Part shown: piece after piece, positions 20,974 to 34,933 of the stretch
Position numbering within the stretch: position 1 is the stretch's first letter
Layout: every line of letters starts with the position of its first letter
DNA from: Treponema sp.
GTDB taxonomy: Bacteria; Spirochaetota; Spirochaetia; Treponematales; Treponemataceae
Direction: 5' to 3'
DNA: 34,933 bases
NCBI GenBank assembly: GCA_024683675.1
Contig: JAIKYB010000019.1
Coordinates: forward strand, 1 to 34,933
Notes under the pieces: generated by a model
Seen by the model: the letters and a program-made list of their open reading frames with translations, nothing else
The model's database searches: none
Told to the model about the DNA's origin: nothing
Position numbers and translations under genes: made by a program

Positions 20974-21843
20974 CTAGTAATTGTTCAGAGTTTTTCCTGT
21001 GTAAGTCTTTGCGTATTCTGCGCCAGCTCCACGGATAACTTCTTCCATTTTGCTTGTAAGGCGTTTTGCAGCAATTGGCTCTGACAAATCCTTGTATTCA
21101 TCAATTTTAATTACCGGAAGAAGCTTAAAATCATAAAGATAGCGTTCTACGTGGTTGTAAGACCAGAGAGGGTCGTGTTTTCCAAGTCCATATTTGTCAC
21201 TTCCGCCAATGAAGATTGGCTGGATGTCGCAGCCGCAGTAAAGTGCAATGCGGGCTGCTCCCTTCTTATAGTTGTTCTGGCCGTGGCGTGGAGAGCGGGT
21301 TCCTTCCGGGAAGATGATTACATTGCAGCCCTGGTCTGTAAGTTTTTTACATTCAACAAGGACATCATCAAATTCTGTGGTATTTGTAATATAGGCCTGA
21401 TTGATTACTCCGCGAAGAGGTGTATGAGTAAGGCTTCCTCTTACAATACAGGTTGAATTTGGTACAAGGGACATAATATAAACAAAGTCCAGAAGAGAAG
21501 GATGATTTGCAATTATAATCTTGCTGTGAATATCTCGGAATTCCTTTGGGTTTTCTACCTTTCGGATTGATGTACGGGTTACGTTCAGGCTGCCTAAAAA
21601 GTTTCTGAAAGTGTGAGAAATATAGGCTCTGGCAGTGATTCCAAAATCTTTTTTGCTGCCTAAAGAAAAAAGCCTGATAAATGGGAATACAAAAATTGCA
21701 AGGAAAACGGCACCCAATCCAAAATAGATTATGGCAAGAATCTTCATAAGACAGAAAAGGGGGTAAGAGAAGATGTTCTGGATTTTAGGTAGATCCTTGT
21801 GCCCGTATCTTTTTTCAAGTTCTTCTTTTGATTCTTTTGACAT
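20974..21843 (-). CDS. PlsC-like 1-acyl-glycerol-3-phosphate acyltransferase (ApeD-like)
   Basis: NHPSLLDFVYIM (HxxxxD) and FPEGTRSPRHG; next to the truncated KS. Confidence 0.85.
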   Translation of the reverse strand: MSKESKEELEKRYGHKDLPKIQNIFSYPLFCLMKILAIIYFGLGAVFLAIFVFPFIRLFSLGSKKDFGITARAYISHTFRNFLGSLNVTRTSIRKVENPKEFRDIHSKIIIANHPSLLDFVYIMSLVPNSTCIVRGSLTHTPLRGVINQAYITNTTEFDDVLVECKKLTDQGCNVIIFPEGTRSPRHGQNNYKKGAARIALYCGCDIQPIFIGGSDKYGLGKHDPLWSYNHVERYLYDFKLLPVIKIDEYKDLSEPIAAKRLTSKMEEVIRGAGAEYAKTYTGKTLNNY

Positions 21844-21853
21844 GCTCTGGCTC

Positions 21854-22516
21854 CTATTTAAGTATAAGCTTTATGAATTCCTGCGCTGATTCCGGTACAT
21901 TTGAAAAATCATCAAAGGAAATACAATTTGTTGTTTTATCTGAAGCTATAATTCCAGCAAATGCTAAAGGATAATTATCATCAGGTCTTTTTTCGCCATA
22001 GACTTCAGGAACCAGTTCATCAGCATAAACCAAAATAATTTTTTTTTCTGTGCCGGCAAGAACAGGTGCAGCAGCTGTCCTGAAAGCATCCTTAAAGTTT
22101 CCCTTTGAAGGATATATTACTGAATAGCCACCCTTTAATCCAAAGGCAAGAGTTGCTGAAGAAACTGGAGTATTGAAAACAGAAAGTGAAAATCCCGCTG
22201 GTAGAATCATATCGTCTTCAATAAGACCTTTGTTTATAGTAAATTCGCGTTCTATTTCTCCACGATTAGAAATAAAAACAATTTTTGTTTCAGGATTTAC
22301 GTGAGACTTTTCCAAAAGATTATGAATAACATGAACTGTCATTTTTGTAATCTGAGAAAGTCGGCGTCTGAATAAGGGGTCTGTATATTCAAGCTTAGGT
22401 GATTCTTTTATCTGCTCGATTGGAATTACATCATTAGCCCATTCCTGCCAGAGTTCATCATCTGACGCAAGGCCTGGAGCCCAAACTGTAATATCTGAAA
22501 AATAAATGTTCTTCAT
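21854..22516 (-). CDS. Truncated beta-ketoacyl synthase-like protein (ApeC/chain-length-factor-like)
   Basis: 220 aa KS N-terminal-like fold (VWAPGLASDDELWQEW; LRT-type helices; FAGIIAS) without a TACSSS motif. Confidence 0.75.
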   Translation of the reverse strand: MKNIYFSDITVWAPGLASDDELWQEWANDVIPIEQIKESPKLEYTDPLFRRRLSQITKMTVHVIHNLLEKSHVNPETKIVFISNRGEIEREFTINKGLIEDDMILPAGFSLSVFNTPVSSATLAFGLKGGYSVIYPSKGNFKDAFRTAAAPVLAGTEKKIILVYADELVPEVYGEKRPDDNYPLAFAGIIASDKTTNCISFDDFSNVPESAQEFIKLILK

Positions 22517-22541
22517 GCAGATTCTTATCCTATCAGACTAA

Positions 22542-23660
22542 TCAGATTTTTTTGAAGCACAAGAGTGAATATGCGTTAGAACCAAGGTTGTGGTGAGCAC
22601 AATCAAGCTTAAAGCCTGCTTCTTCAATGGCGTCAACCAGCTCCTGGTAGCGATACATCTTACTGTTTCCATTTGCAATACAGGTAAAGTAAAGTGAAGT
22701 GCCCATTAAAGAATAAGAGCTTGCTTCAAATTTCTGTTTGTCCCAGAGAGGCTCTAAAACCCAAACGTTTGTATTTTCGTTTGCAGCTTCATGCACCTTG
22801 CGCAGAATCTTTGTCACCTGATGAAGGCTAAAGCAGTCCAGGAATTGGCTCATCCATACTGCATCAGGATTTGCAGGAAGCTTTGTTGACTCTTCCAGTA
22901 CGTTTCCCATAGAAAAATCAACACGGTCTGCAAAGCCTGCATCTGCTGCATTCTTTTTTGCAACATTTGCCTGACCAGGAAGGTCGCAGATTGTCATTTT
23001 TACATCTTTGTCGTAACGGCAGCAGGTCAAAGACCATTTACCTGTATTTCCACCTATATCAAGGATTGTTTTAGGCTTCTTTGCAAAAACAATAGGGAGT
23101 GCTTCAGGAAAAGCGATGTCAGAGTAGAAGTGGTCAAATTCAAACCAGCTTTTTTTAGCCTGCTCTGGCAGAGTTGAAAGGGCCTCGTAAACTGTAGTCC
23201 ATTTATCACCAAAAACCTTAAGTCCTTCTGGTTTGCCGTTTACTATGGATTTTTCCATATCCCAGGCGCCCTCGTAACAAATGTCATTTGTAAACCAGAA
23301 ATTAACCTTTGTAAGGTCATCTTCTAAAAGCATCCATCCAATTTTTCCAAGCAGGTATCTTTCACTTTTGGGGTCTGATTCAGAATCCTTTGAAAGTTTT
23401 ATAACATTCATGCCTAGTGCCATTTCGCATAAAACTCCGGCACCATATTCTGAAATGTGAGTTTTTTCAGCCAGTTCTTTTCTGGAAATACCTTCATCTC
23501 CTGCATCAGAAATTGCCTGCATAAGTCCCAGATTCAACATTGTTTTAATTGCCTGAAAGGCCAGTGGGGCAAAAGCTATTTTCTGTGCTTCAAATTTTGC
23601 ATCAACAGCTCTTATGTCATCAGTTTTAAATTTGTTGATATTGTAGAAAGAAGAATCCAT
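22542..23660 (-). CDS. SAM-dependent O-methyltransferase (ApeB-like)
   Basis: ILDIGGNTGKWSLTCC SAM motif; DLPGQANVAKKNA; winged-helix dimerisation domain. Confidence 0.85.
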   Translation of the reverse strand: MDSSFYNINKFKTDDIRAVDAKFEAQKIAFAPLAFQAIKTMLNLGLMQAISDAGDEGISRKELAEKTHISEYGAGVLCEMALGMNVIKLSKDSESDPKSERYLLGKIGWMLLEDDLTKVNFWFTNDICYEGAWDMEKSIVNGKPEGLKVFGDKWTTVYEALSTLPEQAKKSWFEFDHFYSDIAFPEALPIVFAKKPKTILDIGGNTGKWSLTCCRYDKDVKMTICDLPGQANVAKKNAADAGFADRVDFSMGNVLEESTKLPANPDAVWMSQFLDCFSLHQVTKILRKVHEAANENTNVWVLEPLWDKQKFEASSYSLMGTSLYFTCIANGNSKMYRYQELVDAIEEAGFKLDCAHHNLGSNAYSLLCFKKI

Positions 23661-23691
23661 TTTTACTCCTGAATGCCTCTATACTATCTTT

Positions 23692-23709
23692 TAGTATGCT
23701 TTTTTTCAA
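23692..23709 (-). promoter_or_regulatory. Promoter region for the apeB-C-D-like operon
   Basis: Minus strand TTGAAA, 17-nt spacer, TAGTAT; -10 sits in an inverted repeat ATACTA-tcttt-TAGTAT (23681-23697). Coordinates approximate. Confidence 0.6.
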
Positions 23710-23804
23710 GATAGAGCTAGAAATTACTAAATATTGCGTTGTTTAGCATAGTTTTCAACCAAACGGAAAAGTAATTCATAATTTTCAATAAAAAAGTCAA
23801 TCTA

Positions 23805-23833
23805 TTGTCATTTTTTTTATGATTTACTATAAT
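23805..23833 (+). promoter_or_regulatory. Sigma70-type promoter for the plus-strand polyene operon
   Basis: TTGTCA (23805-23810), 17 nt, TATAAT (23828-23833). Confidence 0.85.
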
Positions 23834-23867
23834 GGTAAAACTACGTCATATAAATCAGGTATAGGTT

Positions 23868-24128
23868 ATGGATGAATTAAGGAAGGAAATTAAAACAACT
23901 ATTATTTCAGCTTTGCAATTAGAGGATATAACACCAGAAAATATTGTTGATTCTGAGCCTCTTTTTGGAGAAGGTTTGGGGCTTGATTCAATTGACGCTC
24001 TTGAATTAGGAGTAGCTCTTAAAAAGAAATTTGGTATTAAGTTTTCTGCAGAGAGCAGTGAAAATAAAAAGCATTTTGCTTCGGTAAATGCGCTGGCTGA
24101 CTATATTTCCAGCGAAAAGAATAAATAA
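23868..24128 (+). CDS. Acyl carrier protein 1 (ApeE-like)
   Basis: GLGLDSIDALELGVALKKKFGI phosphopantetheine Ser. Confidence 0.9.
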   Translation: MDELRKEIKTTIISALQLEDITPENIVDSEPLFGEGLGLDSIDALELGVALKKKFGIKFSAESSENKKHFASVNALADYISSEKNK

Positions 24129-24148
24129 GCTTATAAAAGGGGGATAAA

Positions 24149-24400
24149 ATGTCTAAGGACGAAATTTTCGACAAGCTTAAAAATATTCTCGTTTCAGAAT
24201 TTGAATTGGATGAAGGTGACGTAACACCAGATGCACTTCTTGGAGACGACTTGGATTTGGATTCTATTGACTCAATCGACTTGATTGTAAAGATGAAGGA
24301 ATTCATGCCAGCAGATAAGGGTAATGTAGATCCTTCTATCTTCAAGACAGTAAAGACTGTTCAGGACGTTGTAGACGCTCTTGTTCCTTATATGGCATAA
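24149..24400 (+). CDS. Acyl carrier protein 2 (ApeF-like)
   Basis: DDLDLDSIDSIDLIVKMKE phosphopantetheine Ser; SD gggg. Confidence 0.92.
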   Translation: MSKDEIFDKLKNILVSEFELDEGDVTPDALLGDDLDLDSIDSIDLIVKMKEFMPADKGNVDPSIFKTVKTVQDVVDALVPYMA

Positions 24401-24421
24401 GTTTTAGTCATAATTCTAATT

Positions 24422-26434
24422 ATGAAGACTTTCCTGCGTGTACTTTTTTATGTAGTTGCAGCTGTATATCCAATACTTGTTTTTACGCTGCTGGTTGTTT
24501 TTAAGGTTGATACTAAAGTTTTATCTTTGTGTATTATTGCTTTAGCCGCTGCATTCTTTTTAAGTGCCACAGGAAAAAAGAAGACCGGAGAGAAAGGTGC
24601 TCTTGACTGGAAACCGTTGGTTAGTTCAGTGCTCTTTCTTGCAGCCGGTCTTTTTTGTTTTATAACAGGCAAGGAATTCTTCCTTAAGATTTATTCTGTT
24701 GTTATAAACATTACCCTGCTATTTGTTTTTGGAAGCACCCTTTTTATGCCGCCAAACATAATTTTCCGTTTTGCGACACTGGCAGATAAGTCTATAAAAG
24801 GTTCTTCTTATGAACAGCAGGTTTATAAGTACTGCCGTAATGTCACCATTGTTTGGTGTTCTTTCTTTATTCTAAATGGTGCTGCAGCCTTCTGTACAAC
24901 CTTTTCCGCTTCAATTTTTGGATTAGATGAAGAGCAGGCTAGAACTGTTTGGGCTATTTATAATGGCGGTATTTCATACGTGCTTATGGGCACGCTTTTT
25001 GTAGTTGAATTTATTATCAGAAAATTGGTGGATGGAAAGATGATTAAGGCATATCCTATTACAAAATTTAATGCAGACTCCAGAAAGGATAATTACATTC
25101 TTTGTTATGATGATGTATGGTCAAAAAAATCTTACAAAACCTGGAAGGATTTTTTGATTGATACAGCAAAAATGAGAAAGTACATTGAAAGCCAGAATAT
25201 AGATGAGTATATCCTTCATTGTGAAGATTACTGGTATTTCCTTTGTACTTTTGTTGCCTTACTTCAGTGTAAAAAGGCAGCTTATCTTACTCAGAATATT
25301 TCAGAAAGTTTCCTGGCTGATGTTAGAAAAGCAGATATGGGCTTCCTGACAGATCAGAAGTCAGCTTCTAGTGATTATGCCTTTATTCCAGAGCTTATAG
25401 AAAATGCTCCACTTCCAGAGCTTTCTTATTATAGAACTACACCAGAAATTAATGGTGAAGAAACACGTATTTTCCTTTTCACTTCTGGAAGTACGGGAAA
25501 GCCAAAGGCTGTTCCACAGCGTATGAAGGAGTTTGAAGAGGATAATGCCTTCATTATTTCAAAGTGGGCTAAAGAATTTACTTCACGTAAGCTGGTTACA
25601 ACTGTAAGTCAGCATCATATTTATGGATTCCTTTTTGGTGTTTCTCTTCCTTTTACCCTGGGAACACCTTTCCGCAGAAACAGAGTAGAATTCCCTGAAG
25701 AATTCGAAAAAATGACTGATGAAAAATATATTTTGATTGCAACTCCAGCCTTCCTTAAGAGAACTGTAGAAGTAGAAGAAAAACTGAATATGAAGAATAT
25801 CTGGATTTTCTCTAGTGGTGGAGCTGTTTCTCCAGAGCTGGCTGTTGAATGTGGAAAGCTTTTTAAGTTCTATCCGCTTGAAGTTTATGGTTCAACAGAA
25901 ACTTCTGGAATTGCATATCGCCAGCAGGATAAAGACGGACTTATCTGGACTCCTTTTGCAAATGCAAAAATCTGGTTGGGTGATGATGGCTGTCTGAGAA
26001 TTATTTCTCCATATATCAAAGATCCAGCTGGTTTTGCAACTGCAGACCTTGCGGAAATTCATGAAGACGGACGTTTTATTTTGAAGGGACGTTCAGATTC
26101 AATTGTAAAAATCGAAGAAAAAAGAATCTCTATGACAGAGGTTGAAAATAGACTTTTGGAAAGTGGACTTGTAGAAGATGTAAAGGTTGTTGCTCTTAGT
26201 AATGATGTTCGTCAGTATCTTGCAGCTGCCCTTGTTCTGAATAAAAAAGGTCAGGAGCAGTTTAAGGATACAGAAAAGTTCCTTATCAATCGTTGGTTCC
26301 ATGATTATCTGATGAAGTTCTTTGAAAACGTCGTAATTCCAAAAAAATGGCGCTTTATGGACAAATTGCCAACAGATGTTCAGGGTAAAAAACATAAGCT
26401 TGAAATTATGGCATTGTTCGAAAAAACAGAATAG
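24422..26434 (+). CDS. Fusion: COG4648-like membrane domain (ApeG-like) + AMP-dependent acyl/aryl ligase (ApeH-like)
   Basis: N-terminal ~200 aa multi-TM with MPPNIIFRFATLADKSI...YCRNVTIVWCSFFILNG; C-terminal FTSGSTGKPKAVP, VYGSTETSG, GRSDSIVKI. Confidence 0.85.
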   Translation: MKTFLRVLFYVVAAVYPILVFTLLVVFKVDTKVLSLCIIALAAAFFLSATGKKKTGEKGALDWKPLVSSVLFLAAGLFCFITGKEFFLKIYSVVINITLLFVFGSTLFMPPNIIFRFATLADKSIKGSSYEQQVYKYCRNVTIVWCSFFILNGAAAFCTTFSASIFGLDEEQARTVWAIYNGGISYVLMGTLFVVEFIIRKLVDGKMIKAYPITKFNADSRKDNYILCYDDVWSKKSYKTWKDFLIDTAKMRKYIESQNIDEYILHCEDYWYFLCTFVALLQCKKAAYLTQNISESFLADVRKADMGFLTDQKSASSDYAFIPELIENAPLPELSYYRTTPEINGEETRIFLFTSGSTGKPKAVPQRMKEFEEDNAFIISKWAKEFTSRKLVTTVSQHHIYGFLFGVSLPFTLGTPFRRNRVEFPEEFEKMTDEKYILIATPAFLKRTVEVEEKLNMKNIWIFSSGGAVSPELAVECGKLFKFYPLEVYGSTETSGIAYRQQDKDGLIWTPFANAKIWLGDDGCLRIISPYIKDPAGFATADLAEIHEDGRFILKGRSDSIVKIEEKRISMTEVENRLLESGLVEDVKVVALSNDVRQYLAAALVLNKKGQEQFKDTEKFLINRWFHDYLMKFFENVVIPKKWRFMDKLPTDVQGKKHKLEIMALFEKTE

Positions 26435-26454
26435 TTTGGGGCAAAGGAGATAAT

Positions 26455-26829
26455 ATGAAAGAAGCAAATAATCACGATATTGTAAATGAAAAGGTAATTT
26501 CTAAGGATGATAATTCTATTGCTTTAGAATTTGTTATTCCTATCACAAGTGATTTCTTTGACGGTCATTTTCCAGAGTATAAGCTTTTACCAGCAGTAGC
26601 TCAGTTTGAAATTATTACAAGATTTTCACGCAAGTATTTTGGAACTCAGCGTTATGTTCCAAATATTAAGAGAATTAAGTTTTCGGCTCCAATCAGACCG
26701 GATACAAAAATCCATCTTGAACTTACATATAAAAAAGAGAAGGGGTCAGTAACATTTAATATGGCTGATGCCAACGTAGAAGGGAAAGTTTATTCATCTG
26801 GAACATTTAGTGTACTGGTTGAAGAATGA
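26455..26829 (+). CDS. Hotdog-fold 3-hydroxyacyl-ACP dehydratase (FabZ/ApeI-like)
   Basis: FFDGHFPEYKLLPAVAQFEII. Confidence 0.82.
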   Translation: MKEANNHDIVNEKVISKDDNSIALEFVIPITSDFFDGHFPEYKLLPAVAQFEIITRFSRKYFGTQRYVPNIKRIKFSAPIRPDTKIHLELTYKKEKGSVTFNMADANVEGKVYSSGTFSVLVEE

Positions 26830-27566
26830 AATACGGTTTTGTAATTCCTGTTTATAATCATGGAGCTGCTCTTGAAGCAGTTGTAAAAAATCTTCTTGAA
26901 TATCAGCTTCCAATAATCGTTGTTGATGATGGAAATGATGAAAAGAATAAGGCATATATTAATGATATTGCCCAGAGATATCCTCTTGTAACTTTAGTAG
27001 TACGTCCTAAAAATGGTGGTAAAGGGGCTGCCATGAAGGATGGTGTTCAAAAGGCTTATGAAATGGGGCTTACTCATATTCTTCAGCTTGATTCAGATGG
27101 TCAGCATGATGCCGCTCGTGTAGCTGGCTTTTTAGAAAAATCTCGCCAAAATCCGGAAGCAATTATTTGCGGCTATCCGGAATATGATGCTTCTGCGCCA
27201 AAACATAGGGTAAATGGCAGAAAGATTGCAAATGCCTGGATTCACTTTGTAACCCTTTCAAATGATATTGTAGATGCTATGATTGGTTTCCGTGTTTATC
27301 CGGTTCTTCCTTATATAAAGCTTACTAATTCACATGCTTATTTAGATGCCCGAATGGGGTATGATATAGATATTTTGGTTCGGCTTTATTGGAGAAATGT
27401 TCCTGTAATTTCTGAGCCGGTAAAGGTTTTTTATCCTTCTGATGGAATTTCAAACTTCCGCAATGTAAGGGATAATTTAAGAATTGCCGGAACTTATGCA
27501 AGACTTTGCATTGGAATGCTTTTACGCCTTCCTTTGTTAATAGCAAGAAAGAGGCGTCATGTCTGA
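26826..27566 (+). CDS. GT2-family glycosyltransferase (N-terminal half of ApeJ-like)
   Basis: VIPVYNHGAALEAVVKNLLEY...IIVVDDGNDE...HILQLDSDGQHD. Confidence 0.88.
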   Translation: MKYGFVIPVYNHGAALEAVVKNLLEYQLPIIVVDDGNDEKNKAYINDIAQRYPLVTLVVRPKNGGKGAAMKDGVQKAYEMGLTHILQLDSDGQHDAARVAGFLEKSRQNPEAIICGYPEYDASAPKHRVNGRKIANAWIHFVTLSNDIVDAMIGFRVYPVLPYIKLTNSHAYLDARMGYDIDILVRLYWRNVPVISEPVKVFYPSDGISNFRNVRDNLRIAGTYARLCIGMLLRLPLLIARKRRHV

Positions 27567-28533
27567 GCAAGAAAAAGAAAGTGATGTGCACTGGGCAGAT
27601 GAAAAAGAGGCAATTTCTTCAAATAAACCTCTTAAGCTTCTTTTGTTCATGTTTAAGACAATACCGACTTTCCTCGTTCATGCCGTTTGCTATCCAGTCA
27701 CTTTCTTTTTTCTGATTTTTTCACCACATGCAAAAAGGGATGCCCTAATTTATCAAAAGCGTCTGAAGGAATTTTCGGGTGGAAAGGTACCTCGTAAAAT
27801 AAGTCCCTATCGTCAGCTATTAAATTTTTCTCTTTGTGTGCTTGAAAAAATGGAAGGCTGGCTTGGTAAGGTAAATTATAACAGAATCAGATACGAAGAT
27901 GATGATATTGAAGAGCTTCTGGGGCTTTTAAGAGAAGGAAAGGGAGCAATCCTCCTTACTTCACATTTGGGAAACATGGAGCTTATGAGAAGCCTGCAGG
28001 ATTATAATACTCAGCTTTGTGGCCGTGAAGTTCCTGTTGTTATTATCATGGACATGAACGTTTCTGCCCAGTTTACTCAGACATTAAAGGAATTAAATCC
28101 AAATTATTCTATGAATGTTGTAGAGGCTTCTAATATTGGACCAGATTCTATGATTTATCTGGAAGAAGAAGCTGAAAAGGGCGCTTTGATTGTAATTGCG
28201 GGAGACCGAACCAGTGCTCAGAATAGAGATAAGGTTATCCGCAAGTCCTTCCTTGGAAAAGAGGCAGACTTTCCTTATGGCGTATTCTTAATTCCGGCTT
28301 TAATGAAGATTCCCCTTTATTATATGTTTGGAATGCGCTCTCACATGTCAATTTTCAAACCAAAGTATAATGTTCATATAGAAAAATCTCTGGTAGATTT
28401 TAATTGTCCTCGTTCAGAAAGAGAAGCTAGAATTTCTGATTGCTGCGGCGAGTTTGTGTCAAAACTGGAAAAATTCTGTATGATGTATCCATATCAGTGG
28501 TATAACTTTTTTAATTTCTGGAAAGAAGAATAA
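27559..28533 (+). CDS. Lauroyl/HtrB-type lipid acyltransferase (C-terminal half of ApeJ-like)
   Basis: LLTSHLGNMELMRSLQ motif; GDRTS; overlaps the GT gene by 8 bp. Confidence 0.85.
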   Translation: MSEQEKESDVHWADEKEAISSNKPLKLLLFMFKTIPTFLVHAVCYPVTFFFLIFSPHAKRDALIYQKRLKEFSGGKVPRKISPYRQLLNFSLCVLEKMEGWLGKVNYNRIRYEDDDIEELLGLLREGKGAILLTSHLGNMELMRSLQDYNTQLCGREVPVVIIMDMNVSAQFTQTLKELNPNYSMNVVEASNIGPDSMIYLEEEAEKGALIVIAGDRTSAQNRDKVIRKSFLGKEADFPYGVFLIPALMKIPLYYMFGMRSHMSIFKPKYNVHIEKSLVDFNCPRSEREARISDCCGEFVSKLEKFCMMYPYQWYNFFNFWKEE

Positions 28534-28551
28534 GATTTCTGGAGGCCTTTT

Positions 28552-29205
28552 ATGAAGAAAATCCTTTTTGCATTATTTTCTAGTATCATCCTTTTTAGTT
28601 CTGCTTTTGTATTTGCTCAGGAAAGTGCCGCTAAAGCCTCAATGACTCTGGAAACTGTATGTGGAGCTCTTGCTGGCAGGCCAAACACAGTTGGGGATTT
28701 TACTCAGATTAAGACTATTACTTCAAATGGCCGTACCCTTAAATCTTACGGAAGCTTTATAATCAGTCTGCAGGGAATAATGTGGAAAACAGAAAAGCCA
28801 TTTCCTTCTTCCTTAATTCTTACAGAAGAGGCAATGGTTCAGATTGCAGCTAATGGGAAAAAATCTGTAATGGATGGAAAGGATAATCAGATTTTTTCTA
28901 ATATTTCGGGAACCCTTTCTTCGGTATTTTCCGGAAATGTAGATGGTCTGAAAAAGAATTTTGAATGCACCTTTACAGATATGGGAAGCGGTAAATGGAC
29001 TCTTTTCCTAAGTCCAAAGGATTCTACTATTGCCTCTGTTATGAAGAGTCTCCAGCTTTCAGGTTCCTTTAATAATATGGAGGCAGAGCTTGAATCCTTA
29101 GAAATGGCAGAAGCTTCCGGAAATACTATAAAATACGAGTTTACAAATCAGAAATATCCAAAGGAACTTTCCGCCGATGAAAAACAGAACTTTATCATTA
29201 ACTGA
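28552..29205 (+). CDS. LolA-like outer-membrane lipoprotein carrier (ApeL-like)
   Basis: Signal peptide; GDFTQIKTITSNGRTLKSYGSFIISLQGIMWKTEKPFPSSLIL. Confidence 0.82.
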   Translation: MKKILFALFSSIILFSSAFVFAQESAAKASMTLETVCGALAGRPNTVGDFTQIKTITSNGRTLKSYGSFIISLQGIMWKTEKPFPSSLILTEEAMVQIAANGKKSVMDGKDNQIFSNISGTLSSVFSGNVDGLKKNFECTFTDMGSGKWTLFLSPKDSTIASVMKSLQLSGSFNNMEAELESLEMAEASGNTIKYEFTNQKYPKELSADEKQNFIIN

Positions 29206-31615
29206 TTCTTTTAAGAATATCCCTCAAAAAAGACTTCTTACTGTCTGGTTTATTTATCACTTTGCAATCATTGTATTTTTTCTACTTTCGCTGATTATTT
29301 TCCACGGTCAGATTGGAATTGATTCCGACTTATTCAATCTTGTTCCAAAAAGCATTTCTATGGCTTCGGTAAAAAAAGCTGACGATAAAATGATGGCTGT
29401 GACCTCCAGAAATGTTTTTGTGCTTGTAGCAAACGAGGATTTTTCTGAAGCCAAGAAGGTGGCTCAGGGGCTTTACGGGGCCCTGGAAGGAAGCGAAAAT
29501 TTTGAATCCCTTTCTCTTTACAATGATATTGGGGCAATGGGTGAAATTACAGACTTTTTATACAAGTATCGCTGTAATCTTATTGATGAAAAGACCGCTG
29601 ATTTAATTCTTGCTGAGGATTCCGGGGCTGAAGATTTTGCCATGAATGCTTTGGCTTCGGCTTATGGCGGCTTTACCATGCTTCCTCTTGATAATCTTGA
29701 TTCAGACCCTTTTATGCTTACTGAATACAATCTTCAGAATTATCTGGGTGCGGTTCAGAATGCAGGAACTGCAATGTCTGTAAAAGATGGCGTGCTTGCT
29801 TCTCAGTTTGAAGGAAAGTGGTACGTAATGCTTCGTGCAATTTTAAGCCAGAAGGGTGCAAAGCTTGCTTCAAAGGATAATGCCATTACCGAGATTTACA
29901 AGGCTTGTGATGTTTACGCTAATCAGGGAAGCGAATTTGTTTTTTCGGGTACCCCTTATCACAGTCATGAAAGTTCAAATTCAGCCAGCAGGGAAATTTC
30001 TATAATCGCAAGTCTTTCTATGCTGGTTGTTATAATCCTTTTGATTTTTATTTTCCGTTCTCCAAAGCCTTTGTTTTTTTCTGTAGGTTCAATTCTTACT
30101 TCAATCGGAATAGCCCTGCTGGCTACAATGGCCGTTTTTCATAAAATGCACGTAATTACACTGGTTTTTGGAACTTCCCTTATAGGTTCCTGTATAGATT
30201 ACAGTCTGCATTTCTTTACTCATTGGGCTGGAAACGACGAAATGAAGTCCAGTCTGGAAATTAGAAACCATATTTTTTCCGGTCTTCTAATGGCGATTAT
30301 TTCTACAGGAATCTGTTTCGCAATTCTTTTGTTTGCGCCTTTTACAATTTTGAAGCAGATGTCTCTTTTCTGTCTGGTCGGTTTGGTAAGCTCTTTCCTT
30401 ACTACAATTGCCATTTTCCCTTATATCAAGCTTCCTGCAAAGAGGGGAAATGTTCGTTTTGTAAAGGGCTTTTCCTGTGTGATTTCAAAGCTGGAGCAAA
30501 GATGGGTAGGACGCACTGTAATAACAATCCTCTTCCTTTTTGCCCTGATTTCTATTTGTCTTTTCCACAAAAATATTAGAATTAAAAATAATCTGCTTAC
30601 TCTTTATGATATGCAAGGAAAGCTGCTTCAGGATGAAATTACAGCTGCTAAGGTAATACAGTATACTCCTGGTGGCTGGTACATAGTCAGCGGAGAATCT
30701 GAAAATGAGGCCTTGTTGAACGAAGAAAATCTGCGCAGAGAATTCGAGGCCGCTACAGAAGGAGCCGTCGGTTATGTGAGCACTTCCAGCTTTGTTCCTT
30801 CAATTGAGGCCCAGAAAAAATCAAGGGCCGCTTACAATAAGCTTTTGGGACTTGCCGAAAAGCAGCTTGAAGCCCTGGGCTTTGAGAATGCCGCTGAACT
30901 TTCAGAAAGTCTAAAAGCAGATTTTCTGGCAAGCGAAGAGGATTTTGTTGCTTTTGGAAGAAATAATATCCCTGATTTTATATCTTCTGCAATTTCTTCT
31001 GCCTGGTTGGGTGAGGTTTCAGGAAAGTATTACACAGTTTTACTTCCTACAAAGGTTACAGATTATTCTTCTTACCGCTCTCTTTCCGATAAAAATGAAA
31101 ATGCCTTCTTTATCAGCAAGTCTCAGGATATTAGCGCGGATTTGGATCAGCTTACACAGATGGTTTTGAAATTCTTTGTAGTTGCTTATATCATCATGTT
31201 TATAATGCTTAGATTCTTCTATTCCTGGAAGCAGTCCTTTAAGATTATTTCTGTTCCCTTGCTGATTATTCTGGTTGTAATTGCAGTATTTGCTATCTGT
31301 AAAATTGATTTGGAATTCTTCTCTATTACGGGCTTGATTTTAGTTTTCGGTTTGGGCCTGGACTACATTATTTACATGATGGAAAATGAAAAGAAGAGTC
31401 AAACAGCCTTGTCTGAAAGTGAAAAGACTCTTGAGCCTTTTGCGACTATGGTTTCTTTTGTTACTACAATTATTTCCTTTGGAGCCTTGGCCCTTAGTTC
31501 CTTTAAGCCGGTTCATTTAATTGGACTTTCCATTTTTATTGGATTGGCTACTGCTTACGTTAGTTCTTTCTTCTATGGAAGAATCGGCCATAAAGACAAG
31601 AAGGAGTCAAAATAA
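29177..31615 (+). CDS. MMPL/RND-type exporter (ApeM-like)
   Basis: 812 aa; two TM blocks separated by large periplasmic loops; SLIGSCIDYSLHFFTHW and GLGLDYIIYMMENEKK. Confidence 0.88.
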   Translation: MKNRTLSLTDSFKNIPQKRLLTVWFIYHFAIIVFFLLSLIIFHGQIGIDSDLFNLVPKSISMASVKKADDKMMAVTSRNVFVLVANEDFSEAKKVAQGLYGALEGSENFESLSLYNDIGAMGEITDFLYKYRCNLIDEKTADLILAEDSGAEDFAMNALASAYGGFTMLPLDNLDSDPFMLTEYNLQNYLGAVQNAGTAMSVKDGVLASQFEGKWYVMLRAILSQKGAKLASKDNAITEIYKACDVYANQGSEFVFSGTPYHSHESSNSASREISIIASLSMLVVIILLIFIFRSPKPLFFSVGSILTSIGIALLATMAVFHKMHVITLVFGTSLIGSCIDYSLHFFTHWAGNDEMKSSLEIRNHIFSGLLMAIISTGICFAILLFAPFTILKQMSLFCLVGLVSSFLTTIAIFPYIKLPAKRGNVRFVKGFSCVISKLEQRWVGRTVITILFLFALISICLFHKNIRIKNNLLTLYDMQGKLLQDEITAAKVIQYTPGGWYIVSGESENEALLNEENLRREFEAATEGAVGYVSTSSFVPSIEAQKKSRAAYNKLLGLAEKQLEALGFENAAELSESLKADFLASEEDFVAFGRNNIPDFISSAISSAWLGEVSGKYYTVLLPTKVTDYSSYRSLSDKNENAFFISKSQDISADLDQLTQMVLKFFVVAYIIMFIMLRFFYSWKQSFKIISVPLLIILVVIAVFAICKIDLEFFSITGLILVFGLGLDYIIYMMENEKKSQTALSESEKTLEPFATMVSFVTTIISFGALALSSFKPVHLIGLSIFIGLATAYVSSFFYGRIGHKDKKESK

Positions 31616-32217
31616 TGAAGAAAATCTGTAAGCTGGGGATACTTCTTTTTGCTTGCCTGCTGGCTTTTACTTCCTGTGCTACTACAAAAAAAGCTTCACA
31701 GGCTTCTCTAAGGCCTGTTTATATTACAAACTCAAAAAAGATTAAGCTGCTGCCTTTGGAAAATAGCCAAACTTGTATAGACGGCCTTCAGCTTCTGACA
31801 GGGACCTTTAATGACAGCAGCTTTACTTTGCTTTCTTATACACAGATTGACAGCAGCATTATAAGTCTTGCCCTTATGAATGATATGGGTACAGATATGG
31901 GAAGCCTTATCTATGATGGCCTTACCGTAAATTTTGAGTCTGCCTTTTTGCCAAATCAGCTGCCTGGCGAGTACATAATAAGTGATATTCAAAATGCCTA
32001 TTATTCTGCTGCTGAGCTTGAAGCTTCTTATCAGGCAGCTCACCTAACTTTTAGTGTCAGCTCTGTGGAAGATCCGGATTCTCAGATAAAAGAAATCCGC
32101 CGTATTTATGATGGCAAAAAGCTGATAGAAGAAATTGAAATTAGCGAAAAGGAAGTTTATATAAAGAATTACCTGCGAGGATATTCTTACAATCTGCTGA
32201 ATTATGATGGAGAATAG
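31615..32217 (+). CDS. DUF3261-like lipoprotein (ApeN-like)
   Basis: Lipobox FTSC; position after the exporter. Confidence 0.65.
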   Translation: MKKICKLGILLFACLLAFTSCATTKKASQASLRPVYITNSKKIKLLPLENSQTCIDGLQLLTGTFNDSSFTLLSYTQIDSSIISLALMNDMGTDMGSLIYDGLTVNFESAFLPNQLPGEYIISDIQNAYYSAAELEASYQAAHLTFSVSSVEDPDSQIKEIRRIYDGKKLIEEIEISEKEVYIKNYLRGYSYNLLNYDGE

Positions 32218-32245
32218 GGGAGGATTTAAGGGGCTTTGACTGCGC

Positions 32246-32320
32246 GGTGCACTTTTGTGCGGGTCACTTTTGCACGGGGCACTTTTTTGGGGGGGCCCTT
32301 TTGCGGGAGGGCCCTTGTTA
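32246..32320. repeat. Degenerate 15-16 bp minisatellite upstream of the KS gene
   Basis: GGTGCACTTTTGTGC / GGGTCACTTTTGCAC / GGGGCACTTTTTTGG / GGGGGCCCTTTTGCG / GGAGGGCCCTTGTTA; contains a G7 tract. Confidence 0.8.
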
Positions 32321-32386
32321 TGCAGGTGGCACCCAAAAACAACATGTTTTCAAAATCCTTCTTTTGCATTACAATCCAATAAACAA

Positions 32387-33586
32387 ATGAAAACAACTTT
32401 GTATCTTTCAAAACCCGGCATTATGTCTTGTGCCGGAAAAAATATAGAAGAACTCTGGCAGTCTGTGACAAGCGGAAATCAAGACGGAATCAAAAAGGTT
32501 ACCACTTGCACTGGTGAAGAATTTTATGCCGCCCGTATTGCAGATTCTCTTTTAAAGCCTGCAGCGGCCCGCTATGATATGAGAATTATTCGTATAGAAG
32601 AAGCGGCTCTTAATCAAATTGCAGATGATATTAATCTGGCCTTGGAAAAATATGGCCCTGAACGAATAGCTGTTTGTCTTGGCTCCTGCGATAATGGAAC
32701 TGAATTTTCAATTGCAGGCCACCGCAAATTCTTTTCAGAAGGCAGCTTTCCAAAAGAATACAATATAGAAATGCAGGGCGCTGATTATGTTGCAACTTAT
32801 ATTTCTGAGCGTTTTGGAATAAAGGGCCCTTCAGCAACCTTTTCAACTGCCTGCTCCTCTAGTGCCGGTGCCATGATAAAGGCTGCAGAAATGATTATGG
32901 GCGGTCTGGTTGACGCTGCAATTGTTGGCGGAATCGATATAGCTTCTGATACAACTCTGGTTGGTTTTAATGCCCTGGAGGCTGTTTCTGCTGAAATTAC
33001 AAATCCTTTTAGTAAGAATCGGCATGGAATCACTCTTGGAGACGGAGCTGCATTTTTTATACTTTCCCGTGAACCTATTGGCTCAGAAGAAGCTGAAAAT
33101 TGCGTAAAGCTTTTAGGCTGGGGCGAAAGTGCAGATGCCTATCATATGACTTCGCCTGACCCAAGTGGAGCTGGTGCCCAAAAGGCAATCCAGAGAGCCC
33201 TGGAGAGCGCAGAAATAGAACCTGCTGATGTTGGCTATATAAATATGCATGGAACTGGAACCAAGTTTAATGACAGTATGGAAGCTAAGGCTATTGCATC
33301 CATTTTCGGTCAGGTAAAGGTTCCGGTTTCTACAACAAAGCCTGTAACCGGGCATACCTTGGGGGCGGCCGCTGCATTGGAAACTGCAATCTGTTGGGCA
33401 GCCTTAAAAGAAAAGAAGAGACTTCCTCTTCAGATTTGGGATGGCCAAAGGGACCCAGAACTTGAAGAGCTAAATATAATTGACAAAAATAATGCAAAAT
33501 CAAATGATGCAAAGAAACTAAAGGTTTGCCTTTCAAATTCTTTTGCCTTTGGTGGTGCAAATGCCTGCCTAGTAGTGGGAATATAA
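32387..33586 (+). CDS. Beta-ketoacyl-ACP synthase II type (ApeO-like)
   Basis: FSTACSSSAGAM (Cys), NMHGTGTKFNDS (His), TTKPVTGHTLGAAAALE (His). True start MKTTLYLSKPGIMSC at 32387; track start 32255 lies in the minisatellite. Confidence 0.93.
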   Translation: MKTTLYLSKPGIMSCAGKNIEELWQSVTSGNQDGIKKVTTCTGEEFYAARIADSLLKPAAARYDMRIIRIEEAALNQIADDINLALEKYGPERIAVCLGSCDNGTEFSIAGHRKFFSEGSFPKEYNIEMQGADYVATYISERFGIKGPSATFSTACSSSAGAMIKAAEMIMGGLVDAAIVGGIDIASDTTLVGFNALEAVSAEITNPFSKNRHGITLGDGAAFFILSREPIGSEEAENCVKLLGWGESADAYHMTSPDPSGAGAQKAIQRALESAEIEPADVGYINMHGTGTKFNDSMEAKAIASIFGQVKVPVSTTKPVTGHTLGAAAALETAICWAALKEKKRLPLQIWDGQRDPELEELNIIDKNNAKSNDAKKLKVCLSNSFAFGGANACLVVGI

Positions 33587-33597
33587 GGAGTTTAATA

Positions 33598-34086
33598 ATG
33601 AAAGAAATCCAGCAGCACATTGAGCATGATGAGCTTATTAATTATCTTCCACATAAGGGAAAGATGTTCCTTTTAAGCCGCGTTACCCAGCATGATATCA
33701 ACAATCATACAATTACGAGTGAATATGATATTACAGAAAACTGCATTTTCTATGAGCCAGAATTTGACGGAGTTCCTACCTGGGCTGGCTTTGAATTTAT
33801 GGCACAGGGCATTTCAGCTTTGACAGGAATTACAAATACAATGAAGGGAAGAACTCCTCTTCCTGGTTTTATTCTTTCTGTTATGGAATTCAAGGCTGAT
33901 GTAGGCTATCTTAAAAACAATACAACTATCCAGATGAAGATTGCCGAAGACTTCCGTGATGATGAAAATCATGTTTACAGATATATCTGTGAGCTTTACG
34001 CAAATAAGGGAGACGAAAAGCCTTCTGTTACTTCAAAAATCTCTGTAATGGAAACAGAAGACGCTCACGCTCTTTTTGGAGACTAA
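33598..34086 (+). CDS. 3-hydroxyacyl-ACP dehydratase-like hotdog protein (ApeP-like)
   Basis: YLPHKGKMFLLSRV...FDGVPTWAGFEFMAQGISALTG; ATG 33598 with SD aaggag (track start 33526 is too early). Confidence 0.82.
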   Translation: MKEIQQHIEHDELINYLPHKGKMFLLSRVTQHDINNHTITSEYDITENCIFYEPEFDGVPTWAGFEFMAQGISALTGITNTMKGRTPLPGFILSVMEFKADVGYLKNNTTIQMKIAEDFRDDENHVYRYICELYANKGDEKPSVTSKISVMETEDAHALFGD

Positions 34087-34099
34087 GCTCTTCTTTATT

Positions 34100-34933
34100 T
34101 TAGCGCTTGATTCTGATATTGCTGATAGCGCACTGATCTCCAGTAAGTGCTAAATACACTTCTGGAGTTTCTTCCTTAAGCAGAGTAATACTTTTTATTG
34201 AAATACCCGCATTTTCAGTTACAACAGTCAACTTGTTTTCTTCGCGGCGTACATAAAGCTTGCAGTCTATTCCTTCCTTGTTAAGCTTTTTCCATTCTTC
34301 CCAGCCATTGAAATCATCTTTTTTATCTATGATGATTGTGTTCTGAGCATACTGATAGGATTCCCAGTTTTCTCCATCAATTCGAATCAAGACAAATTCA
34401 CGGAAATTTGGACCATTTACCTTCTGGTTATCAGAATAGAAAAGGCTGATAAATGGACAGTGCCAGACAAGACGGGCAGTCGGCAGGCTCTTGGAATGGA
34501 AGGTAATTTTCATTCCGTCTGTTACTGGAACACCAATTGTTGAAGCAGATCTCCAGCCATCAACTTGAATACTTGGAATATCACCTTCTGGACCATCAAT
34601 ATAATTAAGTTCATCTGCGATTCTTGGAATATAATTTTCAGGGGCAACTTCTTCAGATTTATTAATTTCTACATTACTAATAGTGCAATATTGGCCGCTA
34701 ATGGCAAGATAGGCGTATCGGGAAGTATATTGCAAGGCTATAATAGTTTGAATATTCTGGAATTTATTTTTGATATTCAAAAGTATATGGTCCTTTTGTC
34801 TAAGGACATCAATATCATAATCAATACCTTTTTTGTATTCTTCCAGCCAATCTGGCTCTTCTTCATAATACTTAATAATATGATTTTTAATATTTCTTGC
34901 AGTTACACAATTATTCTGGCCGTCAAATCTAAG
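34100..34933 (-). CDS. Hypothetical protein, C-terminal part; reading frame open through the window edge
   Basis: The frame stays open upstream of the track start (a TTG): LRFDGQNNCVTARNIKNHIIKYYEEEPDWLEEYKKGIDYDIDVLRQKDHIL...; two copies of a YLA(I/L)(S/T)G..C.ISN motif. Confidence 0.65.
   Translation of the reverse strand, partial: LRFDGQNNCVTARNIKNHIIKYYEEEPDWLEEYKKGIDYDIDVLRQKDHILLNIKNKFQNIQTIIALQYTSRYAYLAISGQYCTISNVEINKSEEVAPENYIPRIADELNYIDGPEGDIPSIQVDGWRSASTIGVPVTDGMKITFHSKSLPTARLVWHCPFISLFYSDNQKVNGPNFREFVLIRIDGENWESYQYAQNTIIIDKKDDFNGWEEWKKLNKEGIDCKLYVRREENKLTVVTENAGISIKSITLLKEETPEVYLALTGDQCAISNIRIKR

Follow-up and report, generated by a model that had tools for sequence, protein, structure and literature searches.

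Aryl polyenes (APEs) belong to the most widespread bacterial natural products, and are chemically known from Proteobacteria and, in the form of flexirubins, from Bacteroidota. The described systems most closely resembling the locus reported here, which lies on a contig of a Treponema sp. genome of gut/rumen type, are the APE cluster of Escherichia coli CFT073 (apeA-apeR; PMC8253772) and the Xenorhabdus doucetiae enzymes (PDB entries 6QSP, the solved ApeO-ApeC complex, and 6QSR), with which it has in common the same enzymes, the E-F-G-H-I-J-L-M-N-O-P order followed by Q-R, the ketosynthase/chain-length factor (KS-CLF) heterodimer pair, two acyl carrier proteins (ACPs) and the LolA/MMPL/DUF3261 export set. 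The Acinetobacter baumannii cluster (CP035931; structures in PMC8358021) shares the same core, a split glycosyltransferase/acyltransferase and an aromatic amino-acid lyase, whereas it differs in having ApeK, an FAD protein, a phosphopantetheinyl transferase gene and an H-I fusion, and in being devoid of the methyltransferase; the flexirubin cluster of Bacteroidota shares methyltransferase, LolA, lyase and KS-CLF parts, and differs in its gene order, its nearest relatives and its DarB, considered below. Whether spirochaetes had been reported to carry such clusters was left open by an initial annotation of this DNA, and they have been, as cluster-class calls in metagenome studies: genome mining flagged APE clusters in Treponema_D sp900541945 (PMC8863827; PMC10904984), and they are numerous in camel rumen Spirochaetota (PMC9177762). 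These probably correspond to the present cluster, in this genus or one next to it, and, in the accessible parts of those studies, they figure as class labels only, without an analysis at the gene level, a source of the starter or a product. As such clusters had already been flagged in related spirochaetes, the present locus belongs, with good support, to a known kind of system and does not establish a new one; the additions made here are a complete assignment of the genes, the recovery of apeQ and apeR, a linked lyase, and the results for UbiC, LpxC and DarB.

The stretch analyzed (the window) is the entire 34,933-nucleotide contig JAIKYB010000019.1 (C120) of assembly GCA_024683675.1, which comprises 2.4 Mb in 246 contigs and is ~80% complete with ~4% contamination; G000 denotes this genome, other G numbers denote the spirochaete genomes compared with it, and the genus comparison set consisted of 35 relatives (20 ApeC-positive and 15 ApeC-negative). 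Positions 20,974 to 34,086 very probably represent a locus for APE lipid biosynthesis and export, the gene set of which is nearly complete once two further contigs of the same assembly are added. The ORF list contains 14 intact ORFs there, arranged in two divergent units, a minus-strand apeD-apeC-apeB and a plus-strand apeE-F-(G+H fused)-I-J(split)-L-M-N-O-P, and within the E. coli CFT073 cluster each protein has as its best match the Ape counterpart expected for it, the order likewise being as expected, which makes the resemblance far exceed chance; a collinear match is also seen with the A. baumannii APE cluster. The genes, families and two-unit layout proposed by the initial annotation, as well as the match of this parts list and its approximate order to ApeB-ApeP, were thus borne out by the ORF list, the Pfam and NCBIfam searches (which include APE-specific ApeI-like, ApeP-like and half-ketosynthase models) and the identities to E. 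coli and A. baumannii Ape proteins (Table 1), and its suggestion of a lipid-anchored APE is likewise supported by orthology, order and motifs, the product itself being a prediction. Compared with E. coli CFT073, the differences are the divergent D-C-B unit, the fusion of G and H, the two-gene J, the lack of apeA and apeK in the locus, an HD-GYP gene that would precede Q-R, an ammonia-lyase in place of UbiC-derived 4-hydroxybenzoate, and the failure to find LpxC.

The components characteristic of APE clusters are, moreover, found together: an ApeO-ApeC ketosynthase/chain-length factor pair, tandem free ACPs (ApeE and ApeF), the acyl-ACP ligase ApeH with ApeG as one fusion ORF, an ApeI-ApeP dehydratase pair (PF22818 and PF22817, both above cut-off) and the ApeL/ApeM/ApeN export set. 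The best PDB matches of ApeO and ApeI are the X. doucetiae chains 6QSP_A and 6QSR_A, and ApeC matches 6QSP_B and no other entry. In a ketosynthase tree that included the housekeeping FabF of Treponema, ApeO (19 rows) and ApeR (14 rows) each formed one side of a branch in 100% of bootstraps, grouping with their E. coli/Acinetobacter orthologues apart from FabF, so that the merely generic FabZ/FabF/ACP kinship which would have undermined the initial annotation is not the case. Alignments show the Cys-His-His triad kept in ApeO, an ApeC that lacks the active-site Cys while conserving the RRR arginine motif, and the dehydratase motifs GHFP and LPH kept in ApeI and ApeP. A single AcpS-family (PF01648) match is the sole phosphopantetheinyl transferase seen in G000.

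What did not stand is the extent of the cluster: the region given by the initial annotation (20,974-34,086) is a cluster cut short by the contig end, not the whole of it, and the ketoreductase ApeQ and the ketosynthase ApeR are found on contigs C33 and C231. The whole of apeQ occupies 944-1693 of C33 (57% identity to E. coli ApeQ), while apeR (~50% to E. coli ApeR) spans C33 into C231, the ends of which overlap by 141 bases; the notion of a cluster without a ketoreductase and a second ketosynthase was, accordingly, rejected. The end of C33 holds the N-terminus of an HD-GYP protein (residues 1-474 of its G003 homologue), after which apeQ and apeR follow, the C-terminal end of the gene closes the window, and G003 has an intact 802-aa HD-GYP gene between apeP and apeQ; the order inferred from these is window-P, HD-GYP, Q, R, interrupted by an unassembled gap of ~140 bases. 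In G025, everything from B/C/D to Q/R, followed by the lyase, is on a single contig. The HD-GYP gene, with an extra C-terminal region (window 34,100-34,933; L083 1854-3278), thus lies between apeP and apeQ in G003 and presumably in G000, and in G015 two ORFs of similar total size take its place; its presence might link the making of APE with c-di-GMP turnover, or reflect an insertion by chance. Among close genus mates (L083, L084, L085, L087, L088), conservation is much higher in ApeQ (86-95%), ApeR (94-96%) and the lyase (~90-96%) than in ApeO (~71%), which suggests different rates or an exchange of the Q-R-lyase block. A DUF1846 gene (PF08903; L084 4583-6091, L085 4108-5589) adjoins apeR in G000 and G003, with same-sized ORFs there in G015 and G025; we know of no APE role for its product.

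Beyond apeR, C231 encodes an aromatic amino-acid ammonia-lyase that retains the cofactor motif ASG; its nearest models and structures are BagA/FevW, tyrosine aminomutase and AdmH, leaving Tyr, Phe or His as candidate substrates. Close homologues of it are present in 13 of the 20 ApeC-positive genus mates and in 1 of the 15 ApeC-negative ones (Fisher p = 0.0006, a rough value, as the genomes are related and incomplete), and two other spirochaetes (L234 and L235) have homologues inside their clusters. In E. coli, it is the chorismate lyase UbiC that supplies 4-hydroxybenzoate (PMC8253772); no UbiC (Chor_lyase) match was obtained in G000 or the 35 relatives with the E. coli control positive, other chorismate lyase families not having been searched, and a 4-hydroxybenzoate starter via UbiC was rejected on these grounds. 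With the lyase linked to the cluster and UbiC not found, the aryl starter is likely derived from an amino acid.

The premise of the initial annotation that treponemes lack lipopolysaccharide (LPS) holds for the genus, in that LpxC, an enzyme of lipid A synthesis, had no match in G000 or the 35 relatives, while four controls were positive; the anchor is, for this reason, likely something other than LPS. The APE lipid of X. doucetiae, according to Grammbitter and colleagues, whose work is cited in PMC9966250, reportedly contains a galactosamine-phosphate-glycerol moiety rather than lipid A, and the pathway would therefore not be barred by the absence of LPS. The best NCBIfam match of the GT2 gene is a polyprenyl-phospho-N-acetylgalactosaminyl synthase, at 50 of the 370 bits required and, hence, far under the cut-off.

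Could the locus, then, be a Bacteroidota-type flexirubin cluster (one for an aryl polyene-dialkylresorcinol ester) acquired recently? Like flexirubin loci, it comes with an ammonia-lyase, and the methyltransferase and LolA score best to the flexirubin-named NCBIfam models FlxJ and LolA2, both, however, under their cut-offs, and DarB, the dialkylresorcinol synthase, was not found above cut-off in the ~80% complete G000 or the 35 relatives. The lyase is nearer to the one inside the A. baumannii APE cluster (40%) than to that of the flexirubin-like cluster of Persicobacter, a member of Bacteroidota (31%), and reaches just 348 bits against the cut-off of 700 with the FlxA tyrosine ammonia-lyase model, while ApeQ and ApeR share 49-57% with E. 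coli/Acinetobacter versus 34-40% with Persicobacter. The window proteins being, for the most part, nearer to E. coli/Acinetobacter APE as well, a flexirubin origin is highly improbable, and the relation to flexirubin clusters drawn by the initial annotation holds loosely, for the shared parts, and no further. About as improbable is a fatty acyl lipid, polyunsaturated or otherwise modified, that carries no aryl head: the enzymes are all of the kind seen in type II fatty acid synthesis, the adenylating ligase could take a non-aromatic acid, and starter specificity cannot be read from sequence here, yet the match of the KS-CLF, the two ACPs, the ligase, the methyltransferase and the linked lyase for aromatic amino acids is to APE clusters in particular.

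The APE reading itself has several points weighing against it. Some orthologues share just 22-30% identity with their E. coli counterparts, the join of the window, C33 and C231 spans the unassembled gap mentioned above, seven ApeC-positive genus mates, some of them partly assembled, have no close lyase and must use another source (so that the lyase is not the sole starter route), and absences in G000 are provisional given the completeness and contamination of the assembly. The thioesterase ApeK, common in APE clusters and not strictly defining, is absent from the locus together with ApeA, and G000 has only a distant YbgC-like thioesterase; a cluster-type ApeK was not found in G000, G002, G003, G015 and G025, and is present in G001, G004, G020, T. 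porcinum and T. socranskii. Its absence from the subclade of the window, along with the HD-GYP gene interposed before apeQ/apeR in G003 and, by the layout proposed, in G000, might be taken to mean that the locus is decaying and non-functional, with apeK lost and Q and R displaced. All 14 window ORFs are, however, intact with key motifs kept, the cluster is conserved in many species, and E. coli deleted for apeK, though it loses the full lipid, continues to form immature APE carboxylic acids (PMC8253772), due to which the lack of ApeK is treated as a variant and decay is regarded as very unlikely.

Under the APE reading, the pathway might run as follows. The lyase encoded on the adjacent contig would form an aryl acrylate from an aromatic amino acid, which the ApeH part of the G-H fusion would load onto ACP1 (ApeE); malonyl units would then be condensed by ApeO-ApeC with the help of ApeR, with reduction by ApeQ and dehydration by the ApeI-ApeP pair giving the conjugated polyene, the aryl head of which ApeB would methylate. 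A glycosylated lipid may receive the polyenoyl chain through ApeD and the two-gene ApeJ, and may be moved towards the outer membrane by ApeM acting with the LolA-like ApeL and the lipoprotein ApeN. There the product, predicted to be a yellow membrane lipid resembling the E. coli one, would probably be an antioxidant pigment for which lipid A is not needed. A further, rather unlikely, possibility is that in lipid A-less spirochaetes the APE pathway, equipped with a fused ApeGH, lacking a dedicated ApeK and starting from a cinnamoyl/coumaroyl-type unit of amino-acid origin, yields an outer-leaflet polyene glycolipid taking over a part of the LPS role in the envelope protection of an anaerobe.

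PF13723, the family of ApeC, was matched in 90 of 394 Spirochaetota genomes, some of the matches being in long unrelated ketosynthase proteins; matches in other spirochaetes that fall within ORFs of 700-860 aa do not have the size of ApeC and were left out of the APE count. In a scan of GTDB genomes, the G-H fusion had 461 relatives; the 80 best-matching ones are mostly titled Treponema or Spirochaet- and comprise only spirochaete-type loci, with T. bryantii, T. porcinum, T. socranskii and Treponema sp. JC4 among them. A 793-aa G-H ORF in G023 (L035 9487-11868), where no separate apeI was seen, fits a G-H-I fusion (cf. the H-I fusion of A. baumannii). Two genomes of family f30 (G142 and G176; loci L232 and L233), 3.2 Mb in size with 25-27% GC, have the near-complete operon C-E-GH-I-J2-K-L-M-O-P-Q, and a strong ApeC match occurs in almost every listed genome of this family, the low-GC members of which appear to be Brachyspira-like. 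Full gene sets across Treponema and these putatively Brachyspira-like genomes make APE a candidate major envelope pigment where LpxC is not detected, and, as T. bryantii, T. porcinum and T. socranskii are cultured carriers, the antioxidant and anchoring questions are directly testable.

Table 1. Features of the APE locus and its flank in the window, with the match or identity on which each assignment rests.
Feature	Coordinates	Strand	Evidence
apeD-like lysophospholipid/1-acylglycerol-phosphate acyltransferase (PlsC)	20974..21843	-	PF01553 54.9 bits; 29% to E. coli ApeD, E=5e-23
apeC-like half-ketosynthase (chain length factor)	21854..22516	-	PF13723 (Ketoacyl-synt_2) 104.7 bits; 6QSP_B E=1.7e-11, sole PDB match; 27% to E. 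coli/A. baumannii ApeC
apeB-like SAM O-methyltransferase (FlxJ family)	22542..23660	-	NF053543 452.7 bits, cut-off 560 not reached; 46% to E. coli ApeB, E=1e-117
Promoter-like TTGTCA-17-TATAAT, divergent intergenic region, 5' of apeE	23805..23833	+	11/12 match; site count in region at or below chance; suggestive only
apeE-like acyl carrier protein 1, DSI phosphopantetheine site	23868..24128	+	PRK09184 91 bits, above cut-off 70; 56% to E. coli ApeE
apeF-like acyl carrier protein 2	24149..24400	+	PRK05350 83 bits, above cut-off 65; 42% to E. coli ApeF
apeG-apeH fusion: COG4648 membrane domain and AMP-dependent acyl-ACP ligase	24422..26434	+	PF00501; 36% to E. coli ApeG, 27% to ApeH, one ORF
apeI-like hotdog dehydratase, catalytic-type GHFP motif	26455..26829	+	PF22818 ApeI-like above cut-off; best PDB match 6QSR_A; 32% to E. 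coli/A. baumannii ApeI
apeJ N-half: GT2 glycosyltransferase	26826..27566	+	46% to A. baumannii, 41% to E. coli ApeJ
apeJ C-half: HtrB-like acyltransferase	27559..28533	+	No Pfam match; 28% to A. baumannii (E=3e-51), 26% to E. coli ApeJ (E=6e-43)
apeL-like LolA carrier	28552..29205	+	PF03548; NF053544 LolA2_flexi 74.9 bits; E. coli ApeL E=2e-23; 27% to E. coli/A. baumannii ApeL
apeM-like MMPL/RND exporter	29177..31615	+	PF03176; E. coli ApeM E=2e-36; 24% to E. coli/A. baumannii ApeM
apeN-like DUF3261 lipoprotein (LolB-like), lipobox near N-terminus	31615..32217	+	PF11659 60.5 bits; E. coli ApeN E=1e-7; 23% to E. coli/A. baumannii ApeN
apeO-like ketosynthase, Cys-His-His triad	32387..33586	+	PRK09185 402.5 bits (cut-off 407); 6QSP_A E=5e-71; 39% to E. 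coli ApeO; clade 100/100
apeP-like hotdog dehydratase, LPH motif	33601..34086	+	PF22817 barely above cut-off; A. baumannii ApeP E=6e-14; 24-26% to E. coli/A. baumannii ApeP; no PDB match
HD-GYP gene, C-terminal end, cut by contig end	34100..34933	-	Aligns to residues 521-802 of the 802-aa G003 protein

The genes upstream of the cluster, named by eye from their translations, are ordinary ones (ribosomal proteins, cysS, uvrB), and base composition gives no sign of a recent foreign island, the GC content being 0.384 in the cluster and 0.387 upstream of it. Promoter and terminator counts in the scanned region are near chance level. The start of apeO is better set near 32,387 than at the TTG at 32,255, and between apeN and apeO, at 32,240-32,290, lies a short repetitive stem-forming stretch that produced many terminator-like hairpins in the terminator scan.

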